Assembly: GCF_031432975.1 (NCBI RefSeq)
Contig: NZ_CP133838.1
Coordinates: forward strand, 2,604,001-2,668,000
Reading direction: 5' to 3'
Length of the DNA: 64,000 nt
DNA from: Buttiauxella selenatireducens
GTDB lineage: Bacteria; Pseudomonadota; Gammaproteobacteria; Enterobacterales; Enterobacteriaceae
Shown: one piece after another, positions 49,608 through 57,900 of the stretch
Layout of the letters: each line of letters opens with the position of its first letter
Position numbering within the stretch: position 1 is the first letter of the stretch
The notes under the pieces: generated by a model
Told to the model about the DNA's origin: nothing
Database searches by the model: none
The model's input: only the letters and a program-made list of their open reading frames with translations
Translations under genes and position numbers: made by a program

Positions 49608-52600
49608 TCAGAAGCTGTATTTCACGCCGACCATCGCCGCGGTGTCGCTGTAGCCTTTATCCCCTACCTGCACGCCGACGTTACCCCACAGATTCAGGTT
49701 ACGGTTAAGCTGCCCTTCGACACCGGTTTTGATCTCCCCGACATCCTGTGCTCCCGCCTGGTTGAAGCTCACCGCGTCCATTCGGGTGCCGTATTTCTCC
49801 GTATTGTGGATCCAGTTCACTTCCACAAACGGCTGGAAGGTCCGGTTTTTGCCGTCATCAATTTTATTGTGCCCTTTCAGGAAGGTCCGCACGCCCAGAC
49901 GCGTCTGCACATTATTATCCCCTTCACCGCTGACGTGGGTCCCGTTACTCTCACGATGGTCGTCTGCGGTGACACCCATCCAGATAACCTGCGCCTGCGG
50001 CTGAATAAACCATTCATTCAGTGAGCCCTGACTGCCAGTATATTCGCCCAGTTTATGGGTATAGCCCGCTTCCAGTGAGGCCGTCATGCCGCTGGATTTG
50101 TAGGATTCGCTCTGAATATCCTGGCCTTTCACGTCATTATCAAACCAGCTGTACTGTGCCCAGCTGTCCAGATACATGCCCTGTTTTGTCTCGTCGTTCT
50201 GATACCAGGTCGCGTAGAGCCCGGCACTGTAACCACTGACGGTGCCATCCGAATGGTAGCCGGTGACATGCGAACGGCTGTTGCTGCTGTTGTGACCATA
50301 CCCGCCCATCACGCCAAGATGCCAGCGCTGCAATTCATCCTGACTCCACTGCGCGATATCCCCGCCCATCTGGATCACGTAACGGTTACTCTGGGTGTTG
50401 ATTTGCCCGCTGGTGTCTTTCCAGCGGTTATGCCCGCCCACCTGACGCAGCCACAGACTGGTGACCTTTTTCTCGCCGGTCAGCGCATCGGTATACTGCG
50501 GCTCCCCCAGACGGTCGTGCAGTCGGGTGTTGAACAGGGTATTGGCGGCTACCAGGTTGGCGGTATAGCTGGCGGTTTCCGGGCGAATAACCGGCGTACC
50601 CGGAGCATCCGGTGTTTTTGGGATAACCGGATTGGCCGGCGTTTCCGGTGTGCCTGGTGCCACCGGCTGTCCTGGCGTCACTGGTGTTTCTGGTGTTTCT
50701 GGCGTTTTTGGTGTTTCTGGTACCACTGGCGGTTCAACACGCAGATTGGTCAGGAACCAGTCCGCGCCTTTTTTCTCCAGACTGTAGTCGTAAACCCCGC
50801 CCACAATACGTCCGGATTTGGCAAAGGTCCCGTCAGACAACCCCTTCACTTCCACCACCCGGATGCCGTTCAGGGTGTAAGCCCCATTTCCGCCAGCGTT
50901 ATTCACTTTCAGGAAGGTGTTGCCGCTGGTATTGCCGTTGACGACAATCTTATCCGTCACGGAGGCATCGTCGCCCAGCACTGTATTCAGCACGACGGTA
51001 CCACTCTGGCCATTCCAGTTGCTGGCAGTCAGAGTGCGTCCGGCCGTCATCGGCAGTGCGGACGGTGCGACAACGTTGATAGTACCGGCAAGACTGACGT
51101 CATCCACCAGTGAATCCGCCGTCATGTTCCAGGTACTGGCGCTGTCGATGGAAACATCCGTCGGGTCGATCCAGCCGGTCAGGGTTGCGCCGTTACGCAG
51201 GGACAACGCGGTGTTATCCTGGCCGATGATATTACTGACCAGTTGTGCCCCGCCGTTGCTGCCATCCAGCACCAGTTCGCCGCCTTCAATGCGGGTGTCC
51301 CCCGTCCAGAGGGTGTTACCCGACAGCGTCAGCGAACCGTCACCGGATTTAGTCAGACTGCCTGGTCCAGAGACAGTACCTGCGAAAGCCAGCCCGGTGG
51401 AAGATACGACATCAATATTCCCGCCGCCTTGCCCCAACACGAGATCGCGCGCCGTCGAAATGCTGGCCGTTGTGGCAAGCGTGGCATTATTCAGAAGCGT
51501 CAGAACACCACTCACATCTCCCAGTGCCTCATCCGCACTGATGGACAGCGTGCCTTGGCTGACTTTCCACGGCGTCACTTGTGTTGTGGTGCCCGTTAAT
51601 TGCCATGTACTGGCACCGGTTTTCTGGAAAGCGCTAAATCCCTGAAACTGGCCATTACCACCAGTGGGGGCCAGTTGGGTAACGTCAAAAACCGTTGCCC
51701 CTGTCCCCTGAGGCTGTGTCGTATCACCGCCCAGAACCAGAGTGTTCGTTGATCCGGTCATACCGACCACATTACCTGCAAACGACCATCCGGCTTGCAA
51801 TTCAAGTTGGTTCACACCATCGGTAAATTCAACGGCGTTCGCCTGCCTCTGTGCGCTACTACCAAACAGCGGGTTGCCGCTCATGCCGCCGTTGATGGCT
51901 CCAGCATTAATAATGGATAAATATGCACCTTTAACCCCCGCGCCACCATCGCCAAGCCAGCTATTTGTAGCGTTCCCACCCTTAGCACCACCTTCACCGG
52001 CACCACCGGGCCCAGAATTACCAAACGCGAAACTAGGCCCACCGTTGCCGCCGGAAATCACGCCTTTGTTAACCACCAATACCGTATTCTGACCGTTACC
52101 CGACGTCAGAATTCCCGCGCCACCGCCGCCACTCGCGGAGATGCTGGCAGACGGAAGAAGACCGCCATCGCCTCCCGTGATAACGCCTCCAGTAAGGTTG
52201 GTGACATTGCTGTTGGTGACCACCGCCGCCCCACCGCCGCCACCCGCATTTCCCCGACCACCGACTCCTCCGGTGATCGTGTTACCTTCGTTAGTCAGGG
52301 TATTTGCCATACGTCCGGTCATCACAACACCGGTACCGCCACCGCCGCCCGCACTTCCCCCTGTACCACCGGCGCCCCCGCTGATGGTAGCCCCGCTACC
52401 GGTGAGAAGCAGATTGCCACCAGTCACCACGCCAGCACCGCCGCCGCCACTGCCGACATCGAAGGCATCAGGACCACCAACTCCACCGGCACCGCCAGTA
52501 ACCTTAGCTCCCAGGATAGTGAGTGATGTGTTTCCGGAAACCATAATCCCGCTTCCGCCACCGCCACCACCACCGCCTTGTCCTGGCCGACCGCCGTTAG

Positions 52601-52967
52601 AGCCATTAACACCTGCGACATCAGCGCTCAACGTCTGTGATGTCGTCAACCGCATGCCTGGGTCCCCCCCTAATCCGGCAGCCGTTCCCCCTTGCCCATC
52701 AGTCCCTTTGCCATCGTTCACACTTCCGTCACCACCGGTTGAAGCACCGCCGCCTCCACCACCGCCTCCGGTTAACTGGCTTCCCGCACCTCCTGCCGTC
52801 ACGGATGGCGCGCCATCGCCTCCGGCGTAAGCATCAGTTATCGTTAAGGAGGTGACGACAAGAAAGGTAAATACGCTCCCCAGCCAGGTAAATTTTTTGG
52901 CTCGAATGATATTGCTATGCTGTGTGCAGGGTCTGTCTGTAGAAGTTTTACGTACGATATTTGACAT
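49608..52967 (-). CDS. Glycine-rich autotransporter
   Basis: A 1119-residue type Va autotransporter. The long signal peptide (about 48 residues, ending in TITDAYA) is followed by an unusually glycine-rich passenger (about 50-330, with runs such as GGGGGGGG and repeats of GGAGG and SGGGGAG). A beta-helical part with the autotransporter-repeat motif LTKSGDGSLTLSG (about 530) comes next, then a Pro/Thr linker (about 770-820, TPETPETPVTP) and a barrel (about 850-1119) ending ...AAMVGVKYSF. No protease motif was recognised; an adhesin role is inference. The ATG at 52967 has only a weak ribosome site. The gene is convergent with the methyltransferase. Confidence 0.88.
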   Translation of the reverse strand: MSNIVRKTSTDRPCTQHSNIIRAKKFTWLGSVFTFLVVTSLTITDAYAGGDGAPSVTAGGAGSQLTGGGGGGGGASTGGDGSVNDGKGTDGQGGTAAGLGGDPGMRLTTSQTLSADVAGVNGSNGGRPGQGGGGGGGGSGIMVSGNTSLTILGAKVTGGAGGVGGPDAFDVGSGGGGAGVVTGGNLLLTGSGATISGGAGGTGGSAGGGGGTGVVMTGRMANTLTNEGNTITGGVGGRGNAGGGGGAAVVTNSNVTNLTGGVITGGDGGLLPSASISASGGGGAGILTSGNGQNTVLVVNKGVISGGNGGPSFAFGNSGPGGAGEGGAKGGNATNSWLGDGGAGVKGAYLSIINAGAINGGMSGNPLFGSSAQRQANAVEFTDGVNQLELQAGWSFAGNVVGMTGSTNTLVLGGDTTQPQGTGATVFDVTQLAPTGGNGQFQGFSAFQKTGASTWQLTGTTTQVTPWKVSQGTLSISADEALGDVSGVLTLLNNATLATTASISTARDLVLGQGGGNIDVVSSTGLAFAGTVSGPGSLTKSGDGSLTLSGNTLWTGDTRIEGGELVLDGSNGGAQLVSNIIGQDNTALSLRNGATLTGWIDPTDVSIDSASTWNMTADSLVDDVSLAGTINVVAPSALPMTAGRTLTASNWNGQSGTVVLNTVLGDDASVTDKIVVNGNTSGNTFLKVNNAGGNGAYTLNGIRVVEVKGLSDGTFAKSGRIVGGVYDYSLEKKGADWFLTNLRVEPPVVPETPKTPETPETPVTPGQPVAPGTPETPANPVIPKTPDAPGTPVIRPETASYTANLVAANTLFNTRLHDRLGEPQYTDALTGEKKVTSLWLRQVGGHNRWKDTSGQINTQSNRYVIQMGGDIAQWSQDELQRWHLGVMGGYGHNSSNSRSHVTGYHSDGTVSGYSAGLYATWYQNDETKQGMYLDSWAQYSWFDNDVKGQDIQSESYKSSGMTASLEAGYTHKLGEYTGSQGSLNEWFIQPQAQVIWMGVTADDHRESNGTHVSGEGDNNVQTRLGVRTFLKGHNKIDDGKNRTFQPFVEVNWIHNTEKYGTRMDAVSFNQAGAQDVGEIKTGVEGQLNRNLNLWGNVGVQVGDKGYSDTAAMVGVKYSF

Positions 52968-53486: not shown

Positions 53487-54251
53487 CTAAGCCCCGTTAA
53501 TGGAGACACCGCCATCCACCAGTGAGGCGGTGCCCGTCACAAACGAAGCTTCATCGGATGCGAGCCACAGTACCGCTCGGGCGATTTCTTCCGGTTTTGC
53601 AACGCGTTTAAGCGCGTGAAGACCGGCCATATAAACTTGAGCTTCTTCGCTGGCGTTTTTGTCGCGATACATATCGGTATCTACCGCTCCGGGTAATACA
53701 GAATTGACGCGGATATTCTGTGGGCCAAATTCGGATGCCAGCGCCTGAGTTAAACCAATTAGCCCGGCTTTACTGGCGGCATAAGAGGCCACCTGTGGGA
53801 AAGCAAATGTGTAACCGACAAAGGTTGAAGTAAAAATTACCGACCCGCCGCCATGTTTGAGCATTTCAGCAATTTGATGTTTCGCCCCGAGAAATGCGCC
53901 GGTTAGATTAATGGCCAGCGCATCGGCAAAACCTTCAGCAGAGACTTCTGTGCTCGGGCCGTTTTCACCCAACGTCCCCGCATTGTTAAAGGCAATATCC
54001 AGCCTCCCCCACGTTTCCACCGCTTTTGCCACCAGCGCTTTGGCGTAGGCTTCTTCGCGCACATCACCTGACAACGCGACAGCTTCACCACCCGCGGCTT
54101 TGATTTCTTCCACCAGTTTATCCAGTTCGGCTTCACGTCTGGCACCAACCACGACTTTCGCCCCTTCGGCAGCGAACAGTTTTGCAGTGACATAACCGAT
54201 GCCTGAGCTGGCTCCGGTAACAATGGCAACTTTATCGACTAAACGTTTCAT
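53487..54251 (-). CDS. SDR-family oxidoreductase
   Basis: A 254-residue short-chain dehydrogenase with the classical TGASSGIG cofactor loop (12-19), NNAG (89-92) and the catalytic Ser142, Tyr157 and Lys161 (SYAASKAG). The Arg after the second strand (GARREAE) suggests NADP preference. The substrate is unknown. It resembles bacterial 3-oxoacyl-ACP-reductase-like and glucose-dehydrogenase-like SDRs. It starts at ATG 54251, and the multi-hairpin element lies upstream of it. Confidence 0.88.
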   Translation of the reverse strand: MKRLVDKVAIVTGASSGIGYVTAKLFAAEGAKVVVGARREAELDKLVEEIKAAGGEAVALSGDVREEAYAKALVAKAVETWGRLDIAFNNAGTLGENGPSTEVSAEGFADALAINLTGAFLGAKHQIAEMLKHGGGSVIFTSTFVGYTFAFPQVASYAASKAGLIGLTQALASEFGPQNIRVNSVLPGAVDTDMYRDKNASEEAQVYMAGLHALKRVAKPEEIARAVLWLASDEASFVTGTASLVDGGVSINGA

Positions 54252-54416
54252 GGGGTACTCCGGTTTGATACGGTCAAATTTTAACCGCCCAAGGAGTATG
54301 GTCGCAGATGTGTGTTAATGCATTACTGGTGGGGGATCGGATGCTAGCATCTGTTGATGTTATTTATGTCGGAAGTGGTGAAAGTTCCGTTCACTTGAAG
54401 AATGGGATTTTATGTA

Positions 54417-54895
54417 GTCACCGAACCGGTGAACAGCTTAGGGTGGCCACCGTCGCCACCCTAAGAACCCGGACTCCCGGCAAGTCAATCGCCGCTGCGC
54501 GGTAAACACCGTTTTTCACCCAACATTCGCGGTCGTTCGCGATTCGTTCCAGACGATCGCTCTCTTTCGCCGCTCCCGGCGGCTCAACCCCGACTGAAGG
54601 GTAAAAACCGGCGCGATTGAAGCCGGAACCAACGTCAACGTCAAAAGCTAAGGTCAAAAGCCGAAGCGGTTTTGACCTTGTTCCCGGTATAAATTGCCCC
54701 AGCGTTCCCCACAAGTCAGGGTGGCGTGGTCGGGAACCACGCCAGTGAGCGATCGCCAGGAGCGAGTCGCGAACGACCCTGAACGTTGGGGATAAGCTGG
54801 GGTTTACCGCGCAGCGGCAATTTAAAGACCGGGCGCCGAGGTTGCCAGGAGGATGGCGTAATCCTCCTGGCACGTTCACCGTTCGCAACGGTGAC
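54417..54895. repeat. Symmetric multi-hairpin element with inverted ends
   Basis: The ends are imperfect inverted copies: GTCACCGAACCGGTGAAC at 54417-54434 and GTTCACCG..CGGTGAC at 54874-54895. Inside each end is an 11-bp perfect hairpin (54437-54465 and 54844-54871). Next come long inverted arms: 17 bp perfect (54491-54507 with 54812-54828), 12 bp (54531-54542 with 54767-54778) and 9 bp (54554-54562 with 54747-54755). Central hairpins occur at 54608-54626, 54650-54679 and 54722-54744. The short reading frames in it are not convincing. It could be a mobile palindromic repeat or a structured RNA; I do not recognise the family. Confidence 0.8.
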
Positions 54896-54995
54896 AGAGA
54901 TAATCAACCGCACGGGTGAACGGAAAAACAGCGGATTCGCAGATCACATCCCGGCAACGATGTGATAGCCCCCATACGAGGACTATGACTAAAAA

Positions 54996-57900
54996 CTACC
55001 CCGTAATAGCGTCCATTGCCTGCAAAATACGCTTATCCGAAATCGGGTACGGCGTACCTAATTGCTGTGCAAAGAAGCTGACGCGCAGCTCTTCAATCAT
55101 CCAGCGGATTTCCAGCACATCGTCGTCAACACGGCGGGCTGGCGGCAGTTTATTCAGCCACTGCTGCCAGGTTTGCTGGACATGCTCCACTTTCAGCATT
55201 TGCACACGATCGCGATGCGGATCGACCGCCATTTTCTCGAGGCGCTTCTCAATGGCTTGCAGATAACGCAACGTATCGCCAAGACGTTTGTAGCCATTCC
55301 CGGTGACAAAACCGCGATACACCAGCCCGCTCATCTGCGCTTTCACATCCGACAAACCCAACGCCATGGTCATATCCACGCGCCCTTTGAGGCGTTTATT
55401 GATATTGAAAACCGCCGTCAGGATTTGTTCGACCTGCTTCGCAATTTCCACCACCGTGTCGTTAAGTTCGGCGCGCACTTTTTCATGCAGTGCGGCAAAG
55501 CCCTCTTCACTCCACACAGGGCCGCCTGCCTGAGCAATTAGCTTATCGACGCCGCAAGAAATGCAATCGTCGATGAGATCCAGCACTTTGCCGTACGGGT
55601 TAAAGTACAGGCCGAGTTTGGCTTTGTTCGGCAGTTTTTCATGCAAATACTTAATTGGTGATGGAATATTCAGCAGCAACAAACGGCGCAAACCGCGCCA
55701 CATCGCCTGTTGCTGTTCAAGCGGATTATCAAACAGCTTGATTGCTACGCTCTCTTTTTCATCTACCAGCGCCGGGAACGCCTTCATGCGGTAATTGCCA
55801 CGTTTTTGCTCGTAGCTTTCCGGCAATGAACCGAAACTCCAGATATGCAGGCCGCTTTGTTCGATACCGTCGTCTGCCACCGCCGAGAGTGTTTGCTGGA
55901 CTTTATCTTTCAGGCCACCTTTCAACTCGGTGAGGTCTTTACCCTCTTTGAGTTTTTTGTTGTGCTCATCAACCACGCGGAAAGTCATTTTCAGGTGATC
56001 GGGCACCTGATCCCAATGCCAGTCTTCGCGGTCGATGGTGATGCCGGACATGCGGCGGAATTCACGTTCTAAACTTTCCAGCAGCGGCAATTCCAGCGGC
56101 GTGGCGCGGCCTAAAAAAGCTTCGGCGTAGTTTGGCGCAGGGACAAAGTTGCGGCGCACAGGTTTTGGCAGCGACTTAATCAGCGCAATCACCAGCTCGC
56201 GGCGCACACCGGGAATTTGCCACTCGAAACCGGCCTCTTCAACCTGGTTTAGCAGCGGCAGCGGAATATGCACCGTCACACCATCAGCGTCTGCGCCCGG
56301 TTCAAACTGATATGTCAGGCGCAGCTTGAGATTCCCCTGATGCCAGAAGTTCGGGTAGTCGAGTTTACTGACTGTTTCCGCGCCCTCTTTTATCAACATG
56401 CTCTTTTCGAAATTGAGCAGGTCCGGCGTCTCTTTACTGGCTTTCTTCCACCAGTTGTCAAAATGGCGGGCAGAAATGACGTCGTGAGCGATACGCTGGT
56501 CATAAAATTCAAACAGCGTGTCGTCATCCACCAGAATGTCGCGGCGACGGGACTTATGCTCAAGTTCTTCAATTTCGTTGCGCAGTTTGAGGTTATCGCG
56601 GAAGAACGCGTGGCGTGTCTGCCAGTCACCTTCAACTAAAGCATGACGAATAAACAGTTCACGGCACAGCGCCGGGTCAATCTGGCTGTAGTTCACACTG
56701 CGGGCAGCCACAATCGGTAAACCGTAAAGCGTGACTTTTTCCGTCGCCATCACCGCGCCCTGCGATTTCTCCCAGTGCGGTTCGCTATAAGAGCGTTTTA
56801 GCAGATGCTGCGCCAGCGGCTCTACCCACTCCGGGTCGATACGCGCGGCAATGCGCCCCCACAGGCGGCTGGTTTCCACCAGTTCGGCAACCATCGTCCA
56901 TTTTGGTGGTTTCTTGAATAAACCGGAGCCAGGGAAGATGGAGAAGCGGGCGTTACGTGCGCCGGTATATTCCTGTTTATCGGCATCTTTTTGGCCGATA
57001 TGTGAAAGCAAGCCGGTCAGCAATGCGCAGTGAACGGAGCGGAAATCAGCAGGTTCGCTATTAATCGGCAAGCCTAACTCTTTCACCACCTGGCGCAACT
57101 GGGTGTAGATGTCCTGCCATTCGCGAACGCGCAGGTAGTTCAGGTAATCAAGTTTGCACTGGCGGCGGAACTGGTTAGACGACAGTTCTTTTTGCTGCTC
57201 ACCGAGGTAGTTCCATAAATTCACATATGTCAGGAAGTCAGATTCTTTGTCATGGAAGCGACGATGTTTTTCATCTGACGCCTGCTGTTTGTCCATCGGA
57301 CGCTCGCGCGGGTCCTGAATAGACAGGCCTGCCGTAATGATCATGACTTCACGCACACAACCAAATTTCTGCGCTTCCAGCACCATACGCGCCAGACGCG
57401 GGTCGACAGGCAACTGCGAAAGCTGGCGGCCAAGCGGCGTCAGTTTATACACGCTAAGGTCGGCATCGCTGGAGATAGCACCCAGCTCTTCGAGCAGGCG
57501 CACACCATCCTGAATATTGCGCTTATCCGGTGCTTCGACGAACGGGAATGCGGCGATATCACCCAGGCCAAGCGCAGTCATTTGCAGAATAACGGACGCC
57601 AGGTTGGTGCGCAGGATTTCCGGGTCGGTAAATTCCGGGCGAGACAGGAAATCGTCTTCGGAATAAAGACGAATACAGATCCCGTCAGAAACACGTCCGC
57701 AACGGCCTTTACGCTGGTTTGCCGAGGCCTGTGAAACCGGTTCAATCGGCAAGCGCTGCACTTTGGTGCGATAGCTATAACGGCTGATACGCGCGGTGCC
57801 GGGATCGATAACGTATTTAATGCCAGGCACAGTCAGCGAGGTTTCAGCTACGTTGGTTGCCAGCACAATGCGCCGTCCAACATGTGACTGGAAAACGCGG

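Follow-up and report, generated by a model that had tools for sequence, protein, structure and literature searches.

A dispersed repeat of two opposed structured units in Buttiauxella, its relatives across the Enterobacteriaceae, and CsrA as a candidate partner

The element that lies between an SDR gene and hrpA in Buttiauxella selenatireducens is, judging from sequence comparison, one copy of a dispersed non-coding repeat in which two structured units face outward. Each unit consists of a branched fold of about 150 nt and an end module of about 120 nt, the latter with a strongly covarying hairpin. Relatives of the unit are found well beyond Buttiauxella, and the inner fold presents a pair of GGA loops in most of its copies. 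As a joint explanation we suggest, tentatively and at somewhat less than even confidence, a mobile repeat that may act as a CsrA-binding RNA.

Two outward-facing units between an SDR gene and hrpA

The window, that is, the whole stretch of DNA that was analyzed, comprises 64,000 nucleotides of the B. selenatireducens genome. Within it the element is flanked by a reading frame at 53487–54251 (− strand) and by the 3′ end of another at 54996 (− strand), which we take, from a reading of the sequence, to be the SDR gene and hrpA. The intergenic place given in a preliminary description is correct; the limits it gave, 54417–54895, are too narrow. An alignment of six full copies from the same genome puts the core at 54385–54925 (541 bp), with termini TTCCGTTCAC and GTGAACGGAA and with flanks outside them that are partly conserved among the copies. 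The internal symmetry that had been described was largely recovered: a hairpin at 54437–54465 with 14-nt arms that are 93% complementary, a hairpin on the right that had been placed at 54844–54871 and was found at 54843–54872, and long inverted arms at 54466–54604 and 54705–54843 (139 nt, 71% complementary). The 9-bp stem claimed near the center corresponds to a hairpin at 54723–54743, and the central stem at 54650–54679 and a 5-bp stem at 54608–54626 can be seen by eye. The features are as follows.

54341–54384, left outer flank, partly common to other copies (six copies of the same genome aligned); outer limit approximate
54385–54394, left core terminus TTCCGTTCAC, common to full copies
54385–54506, unit strand −, left end module, match to covariance model R1 at 108.9 bits
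54437–54465, − strand, left covarying hairpin H2 of the end module
54476–54626, unit strand −, left branched fold S, minimum free energy (MFE) −76.6 kcal/mol, z −3.28 for 54466–54630
54539–54560, − strand, GGA-loop hairpin of the left half, CTGGA on the − strand
54569–54583, − strand, GGA-loop hairpin of the left half, GCCGCCGGGAGCGGC on the − strand
54650–54679, central stem separating the two units, varies among copies
54684–54833, unit strand +, right branched fold S, MFE −83 kcal/mol, z −5.65 for 54682–54843
54723–54743, + strand, GGA-loop hairpin of the right half, GGCGTGGT-CGGGA-ACCACGCC
54749–54770, + strand, GGA-loop hairpin of the right half, loop CAGGA
54803–54925, + strand, right end module, match to covariance model R1 at 127.2 bits
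54843–54872, + strand, right covarying hairpin H2, 12-bp perfect stem
54916–54925, right core terminus GTGAACGGAA, common to full copies
54926–54991, right outer flank with hairpin ATCACATC..GATGTGAT; outer limit approximate, hrpA homology in relatives starting at 54992–55005

When folded, 54383–54925 reaches −298.4 kcal/mol on the + strand and −302.5 kcal/mol on the − strand, with z = −16.3 on each and none of 100 shuffles as stable on either. The matches of R1 to both ends, on the + strand at 54803–54925 and on the − strand at 54385–54506, bear out the suggestion that the element contains two opposed copies of one unit, an anatomy that we regard as almost certain. A coding reading was considered for the 156-aa frame on the − strand of 54418–54888 and set aside, as the copies differ by indels.

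Outside the core, the hairpin at 54943–54966 in the right flank shows a compensated change: ATCACATC/GATGTGAT in the window corresponds to CTCACCC/GGGTGAG in certain other copies. The position of the left outer flank is occupied in some other copies by CTGTCTCTTAGTCACATCT. Elsewhere in the window, 49608–52967 (− strand) holds an open frame of 1119 aa with a glycine-rich part, presumably autotransporter-like from a reading of its translation alone.

Copies, ends and movement

Blastn finds the element at 26 places in its own genome, which group into 11 loci, six of them about full length. In a sample of relatives, all 11 Buttiauxella genomes (the source genome included) gave matches, as did one of 29 others, weakly, and a 24-base core pattern returned 44 stretches from a named genome collection, every one of them in a record titled Buttiauxella. 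At the window locus, homology to hrpA in 11 other Buttiauxella genomes starts at 54992–55005, right where the insert stops. In the 10 of these genomes that can be read past hrpA, the 720 bases shown do not contain the window copy (the contig of G002 ends there). Two orthologues of the SDR–hrpA gap (L074, L075) are only a few tens of bases long, a third (L070) contains a decayed relative from the element's own repeat family, and the others hold other repeats or inserts; because of this content, the gap is apparently a place where repeats collect.

Several observations concern the shapes and targets of the copies. Three half-size copies in the same genome (L007, L008 and L009) are without the left inner arm of the full copies, and the junction AACCGGTTTTGACC, common to L007 and L008, hints at slippage between the arms of the palindrome. 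Another palindromic repeat (CCCTCACCC..CCCTCTCCC-loop-GGGAGAGGG..GGGTGAGGG) is found repeatedly in Buttiauxella and has often served as the target of the element's insertion; it was seen in the flanks of L048, L057 and L049, at L268, L269 and L282–L285, and in the gap orthologues L071, L073 and L078.

Copies in G009, a complete related genome, extend outward from the core to words like CTGTCTCTTAGTCACATCT and AGTTGTGTATAAGAGACAG, which resemble the ends of Tn5/IS50. Such words occur on both sides with at most 6 mismatches in 15 of 40 loci, a set in which L027/L062 and L028/L047 are each one copy and L049/L063 are one insertion in two species. Congeneric copies such as L048, L057 and L059 have them with 0–1 mismatches at each end. 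Among the 15 two-ended loci, the 9-base flanks match at 9/9 positions in L048 and L057, at 8/9 in L049 and L063, and at 2–6/9 in the other 11. The element at the L048 locus is flanked by two copies of CTCAGGGAG; in G002 and G007 the corresponding place holds a CTCTCCCTCAGGGAGAGGG hairpin without interruption. These two genomes also have a second hairpin beside CTCTCCCTCAGGGAGAGGG that is absent from G009, so the empty site is a near one and not an exact one. In a set of Buttiauxella loci, a CTCTCCC-like word lies at most 22 bases outside 27 of 49 end words, a count that has no chance control. In one other genus, IS50-like ends with 1–5 mismatches are present on both sides in 6 of 7 loci.

Because of the IS50/Tn5-like ends, the perfect 9-bp flanking repeats on two copies and the near-empty sites in relatives, some copies of the core appear to have moved as non-autonomous elements, and we consider past IS50-type movement of the end-bearing copies highly probable. 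The transposase, of IS50 type (IS4 family), would have been supplied to them in trans. The corresponding transposase domain (PF02281) was found in none of 12 Buttiauxella genomes in a search run without a positive control, and in 7 of 295 genomes of the family, 6 of them over the cut-off; IS50-like end words occur in two transposase-bearing genomes, G164 (below the cut-off) and G205.

The earlier suggestion of a non-autonomous mobile element thus holds for some congeneric copies, which bear IS50-like ends and 9-bp flanking repeats, and not for the window copy, which lacks such ends. Its best matches to them are 9/19 on the left and 10/19 on the right, which is not recognizable, and for this reason it is not filed as an IS50 MITE; it is probably a fixed member that is no longer mobile. 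Elsewhere in the same genome, 4 of 11 loci (L003, L006, L008, L009) have at least one good IS50-like end, and only L009 has both. The congeners with ends and duplications would fit the IS50 MITE kind, save for the unseen partner transposase. A further group of loci (L047, L061, L065 and L066) has the same core, no IS50-like ends and other outer motifs (TATGCC..GGTGATTTTCCGTTCACC).

Covarying folds and relatives in other genera

The end modules, about 120 nt at each end of the core and in opposite orientation, provided the material for a covariance analysis. From Buttiauxella loci 128 were extracted; of 126 modules, 123 with lengths of 100–135 nt were kept, 102 of them with both anchors, and alignment A1 retains 49 of 120 modules at less than 90% identity. 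In these 49 sequences 99.4% of cells are paired. Double changes occupy 140 cells, 139 of them in H2, vs 32.0 in shuffles, and one-sided changes number only 7, of which 2 fall in H2. Further pair types show no excess (26 vs 25.0 in shuffles). The covariance model R1, built on the end module, finds matches in 54 of 198 Enterobacteriaceae genomes and 42 of 154 genera, with at most 18 candidates scored per genome. In a sample of the order it matches 8 of 197 genomes, one of which (E = 5e-5) lies outside the family.

The arrangement of opposed units also extends beyond Buttiauxella. By a hand count from the table, 26 of 41 other-genus loci, which are the top of hit lists and not a random draw, have an outward-facing pair of R1 matches within 800 bases. 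Two such paired elements stand in tandem at L236, the units form direct repeats at L248 and L250, and L114, L115 and L258 were left out of the counts. In one other-genus genome (G012; L191 1200–3036, L183 and L253) several related units were seen, in places close together, beside short tandem repeats.

The inner 150 nt or so, from the center of the element to the module, fold alike when the module strand is taken: the two window halves, E. coli, Citrobacter and most other half-units give similar trees. This comparison was made by eye on 37 half-units, and L048 −, L236:1502–1643, L257 and some others depart from it. The tree is closed by a CCGG stem and has further stems inside, a pair of hairpins that emerge from a multiloop, and a side hairpin, CCGC-GCGG. 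Alignment A2 contains 31 of the 37 half-units, omitting L048 −, L222 − and L251 (start too far upstream), L236:1502–1643 (different fold), and L236:1736–1891 and L254 (close to kept rows). Double changes occur in 41 of 54 pairs, in 203 cells vs 72.9 (sd 7.2) in shuffles and 45–79 in slid controls, the structure having been derived from this same alignment with RIBOSUM scoring, which favors it over slid versions. RNAalifold with default scoring returns only a small structure for the 31 rows (−9.9), and with RIBOSUM returns the full one (−90.2 on the unit strand vs −82.6 on the complement).

Additional support for an RNA comes from a comparison of the strands: in 145 of 162 units the unit strand is the more stable of the two, the mean difference being about 6–7 kcal/mol. 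The balance of G-U and A-C mispairs in the inner fold was also considered as a sign of the transcribed strand; the counts are equal (42 vs 40) and decide for neither. Strand bias, loop conservation (below) and covariation together argue for selection at the RNA level, and we consider selection on the RNA fold likely. DNA-level upkeep of the palindromes could account for part of the covariation, because one-sided changes in H2 are nearly absent. The earlier suggestion of a structured RNA agrees with the cross-genus covariation and the strand-biased stability, the transcript being a predicted one.

The window element itself has no blastn match in plasmids or in E. coli, which was reached only by way of relatives in other genera. 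A search with such a relative finds matches in 4522 of 5426 E. coli genomes, none over 80% of the query. When the query is a unit from E. coli, 5375 of 5426 match; 1907 have at least 80% of the unit in one place, and 3468 of the 5375 have no place that covers 80% of it. MG1655 has a truncated copy at 2139530–2139654, adjoining asmA/yegH, in which the GGA hairpins are lost. In the plasmid collection, matches fall in records naming Citrobacter, Klebsiella, Escherichia and Phytobacter, some of them chromosome-sized, and on one Citrobacter freundii plasmid a full element separates torD from yeiP. The tables for E. coli and for plasmids, the latter with a gene table incomplete by its own description, list no feature under the matches that they show except 'Uncharacterised protein' in one Klebsiella record (H10). 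The E. coli unit has no match in the phage collection.

These E. coli members raise the question of a name. RSA is an E. coli repeat of about 152 bp, from surveys of enterobacterial repeats, with which the truncated members may, we presume, overlap. It is quite possible, if short of an even chance, that the window element is the full-length form of RSA: the truncated K-12 copy is of similar size and lies beside asmA/yegH, and one K-12 MG1655 record (H75) has three places that match the E. coli unit. Such an identity would concern the name and not the mechanism. It would cover the E. coli relics and leave unexplained the GGA hairpins, the two-unit form and the IS50-like ends; RSA is not known to have the latter two, and the published RSA sequence was not found in the literature text searched.

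GGA loops, candidate partners and known systems

Minimum free energy structures have two GGA loops in 148 of 162 units, and at least two GGA-loop hairpins are thus the rule. We collected 264 perfect inner hairpins of at least 5 bp from 183 distinct half-units (125 from Buttiauxella, 58 from others), counted by register so that some enter twice; 208 have a GGA loop, 1 has TCC and 55 have neither, and the GGA-loop share in mononucleotide-shuffled non-Buttiauxella regions is 9.6%. At least one GGA hairpin is present in 169 of the 183 half-units. The other 14 were inspected by eye: both GGAs persist in L105, L227, L237 − and L250, where stems are imperfect or N occurs; one persists in L050 and in L237 +; the first is missing from L085, L086 and L088; and five are rearranged (L080, L084 twice, L107 twice). 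In the 31-row alignment, GGA is retained in 61 of 62 homologous loops, with the exception in L233. The two GGAs lie 26 nt apart in 95 of 107 Buttiauxella spacings and in 21 of 41 others, 28–29 nt in 16 more of the others, and 26–29 nt in 38 of those 41. The unit totals used here and below (173, 162 and 183) differ by the rules for removing duplicates and finding the start.

Paired GGA loops suggest CsrA as a candidate partner; its SELEX consensus is given as RUACARGGAUGU with an ANGGAN hexaloop in PMC7652899. Outside Buttiauxella the core of this motif, CANGGANG, is present in 33 of 49 units vs 0 of 49 on the other strand and 3.5 in shuffles, and 9 of the 49 units, the E. coli unit L263 included, reach 11 of the 12 SELEX positions, as no shuffle does. 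In Buttiauxella CANGGANG is present in 22 of 124 units (other strand 0, shuffles 6.8), and 2 of 124 reach 11 of 12 positions. Scores of at least 9 are reached there by 10 of 124 units when the unit strand is read and by 46 when the other strand is, against about 20 in shuffles, so the SELEX measure does not favor the unit strand in Buttiauxella. Loops in g1 (Buttiauxella), g81, g87 and g138 are mostly CGGGA, without the A of ANGGA; those of the window are CGGGA, CGGGA, CAGGA and CTGGA, and those of E. coli and Citrobacter include AGGGAT and ATGGAT. Since Buttiauxella loops are mostly CGGGA, the window copy represents the motif only weakly, and its putative CsrA sites are probably weaker than those of the E. 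coli and Citrobacter members. At the E. coli locus L262, the strand with the putative binding sites is opposite to both flanking genes.

CsrA is our best-guess partner of the GGA hairpins because the loop, the loop sequence outside Buttiauxella and the spacing fit, a guess that we hold loosely. The long stems, the CGGGA loops in four groups and the other-strand scores in Buttiauxella speak against certainty; many of the GGA-hairpin stems are 7–10 bp long, and very stable structure may be disadvantageous for CsrA, according to the review PMC7652899. Were the unit to work as an RNA with CsrA bound at its two GGA hairpins, it could be a decoy like CsrB or a mark on the transcript in which it is embedded, and the opposed arrangement would put one unit in the binding sense in any transcript that reads into the element, whichever side it comes from. 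In its widest form the proposal, which we consider rather unlikely as a whole, would be that Enterobacteriaceae carry a transposable CsrA-binding RNA: a repeat found across the family, with paired GGA hairpins that titrate or recruit CsrA and with opposed units, so that an insertion in either direction yields a binding transcript. This repeat would have spread partly by IS50-type transposition, and its copy number would tune post-transcriptional regulation.

Much of the same evidence is compatible with a purely selfish non-autonomous element, an explanation that we rate as possible and would not favor outright. Its palindromes would be kept by template switching or gene conversion between arms, and its loops would be inherited and not selected as RNA. 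The IS50-like ends, the 9-bp flanking repeats and the near-empty sites are all in keeping with it, and DNA-level copying between palindrome arms fits because double changes far outnumber one-sided ones (139 vs 2 in H2) and because G-U and A-C are equal in the inner fold. What it does not readily explain is that GGA is kept in 61 of 62 loops while the stems change, that one strand is the more stable in 145 of 162 units, and that CANGGANG lies on a single strand outside Buttiauxella. A structured RNA with another partner or role, as a stabilizer of mRNA 3′ ends, an RNase III substrate or a transcription attenuator, would suit the intergenic place beside gene ends and the very stable folds on both strands, and roles of this type are named for the PU-BIME, Neisseria and Yersinia repeats in PMC2267715. 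Such a role alone does not predict the GGA loops or their spacing of 26 or 26–29 nt, and we consider it improbable.

If the RNA reading is true, ready-made sites for a global translational regulator would travel on a mobile repeat, and the family would offer a direct test of dispersed repeats as regulatory sponges versus relics. Even without the RNA reading, the truncated repeats of most E. coli genomes are linked to a full two-unit element in relatives, with an indication of how some such repeats moved. Annotation would benefit, since the matches shown are largely without a listed feature.

A match to a named repeat family, which the preliminary description had set as the result that would remove novelty, did not emerge from Rfam: no family, CsrB (RF00018) included, matched at E ≤ 1 in 53500–56000, a result that bears on REP, ERIC and BoxC only as far as Rfam may cover them. 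Among the matches listed in literature searches, which mostly excluded subscription literature, no title suggested this element for the core terminal words, and it was recognized in no title or abstract start. The papers cited are PMC7652899, PMC10969869, PMC2229807, PMC2759123, PMC3733652 and PMC2267715.

Among known systems, ERIC, REP/BIME, BoxC, RU-3 and YPAL are, like the element, dispersed intergenic palindromic repeats of enterobacteria; they differ in their published lengths, about 170 bp or less, whereas the element has about 540–600 bp, two opposed units and nested hairpins. RU-3 (103 nt, PMC2759123) was also judged by eye to be a different sequence. With IS50/Tn5-type (IS4 family) MITEs the repeat shares the 19-bp Tn5-like ends of some congeneric copies, the 9-bp flanking repeats and a length too short for a transposase gene. 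It differs from them in that the core also occurs without such ends, in the window copy among others, and in that no partner transposase was found in the genus, in the search without a positive control. The window element is not a member of the CsrB family, and the CsrB gene of the same genome (G000:C1:941842–942211) lies away from it. With CsrB/CsrC and RsmX/Y/Z the repeat has in common GGA-loop hairpins and, in many genera, CANGGANG; unlike them, it has two such hairpins per unit, long stems, many dispersed copies and membership in a mobile element.
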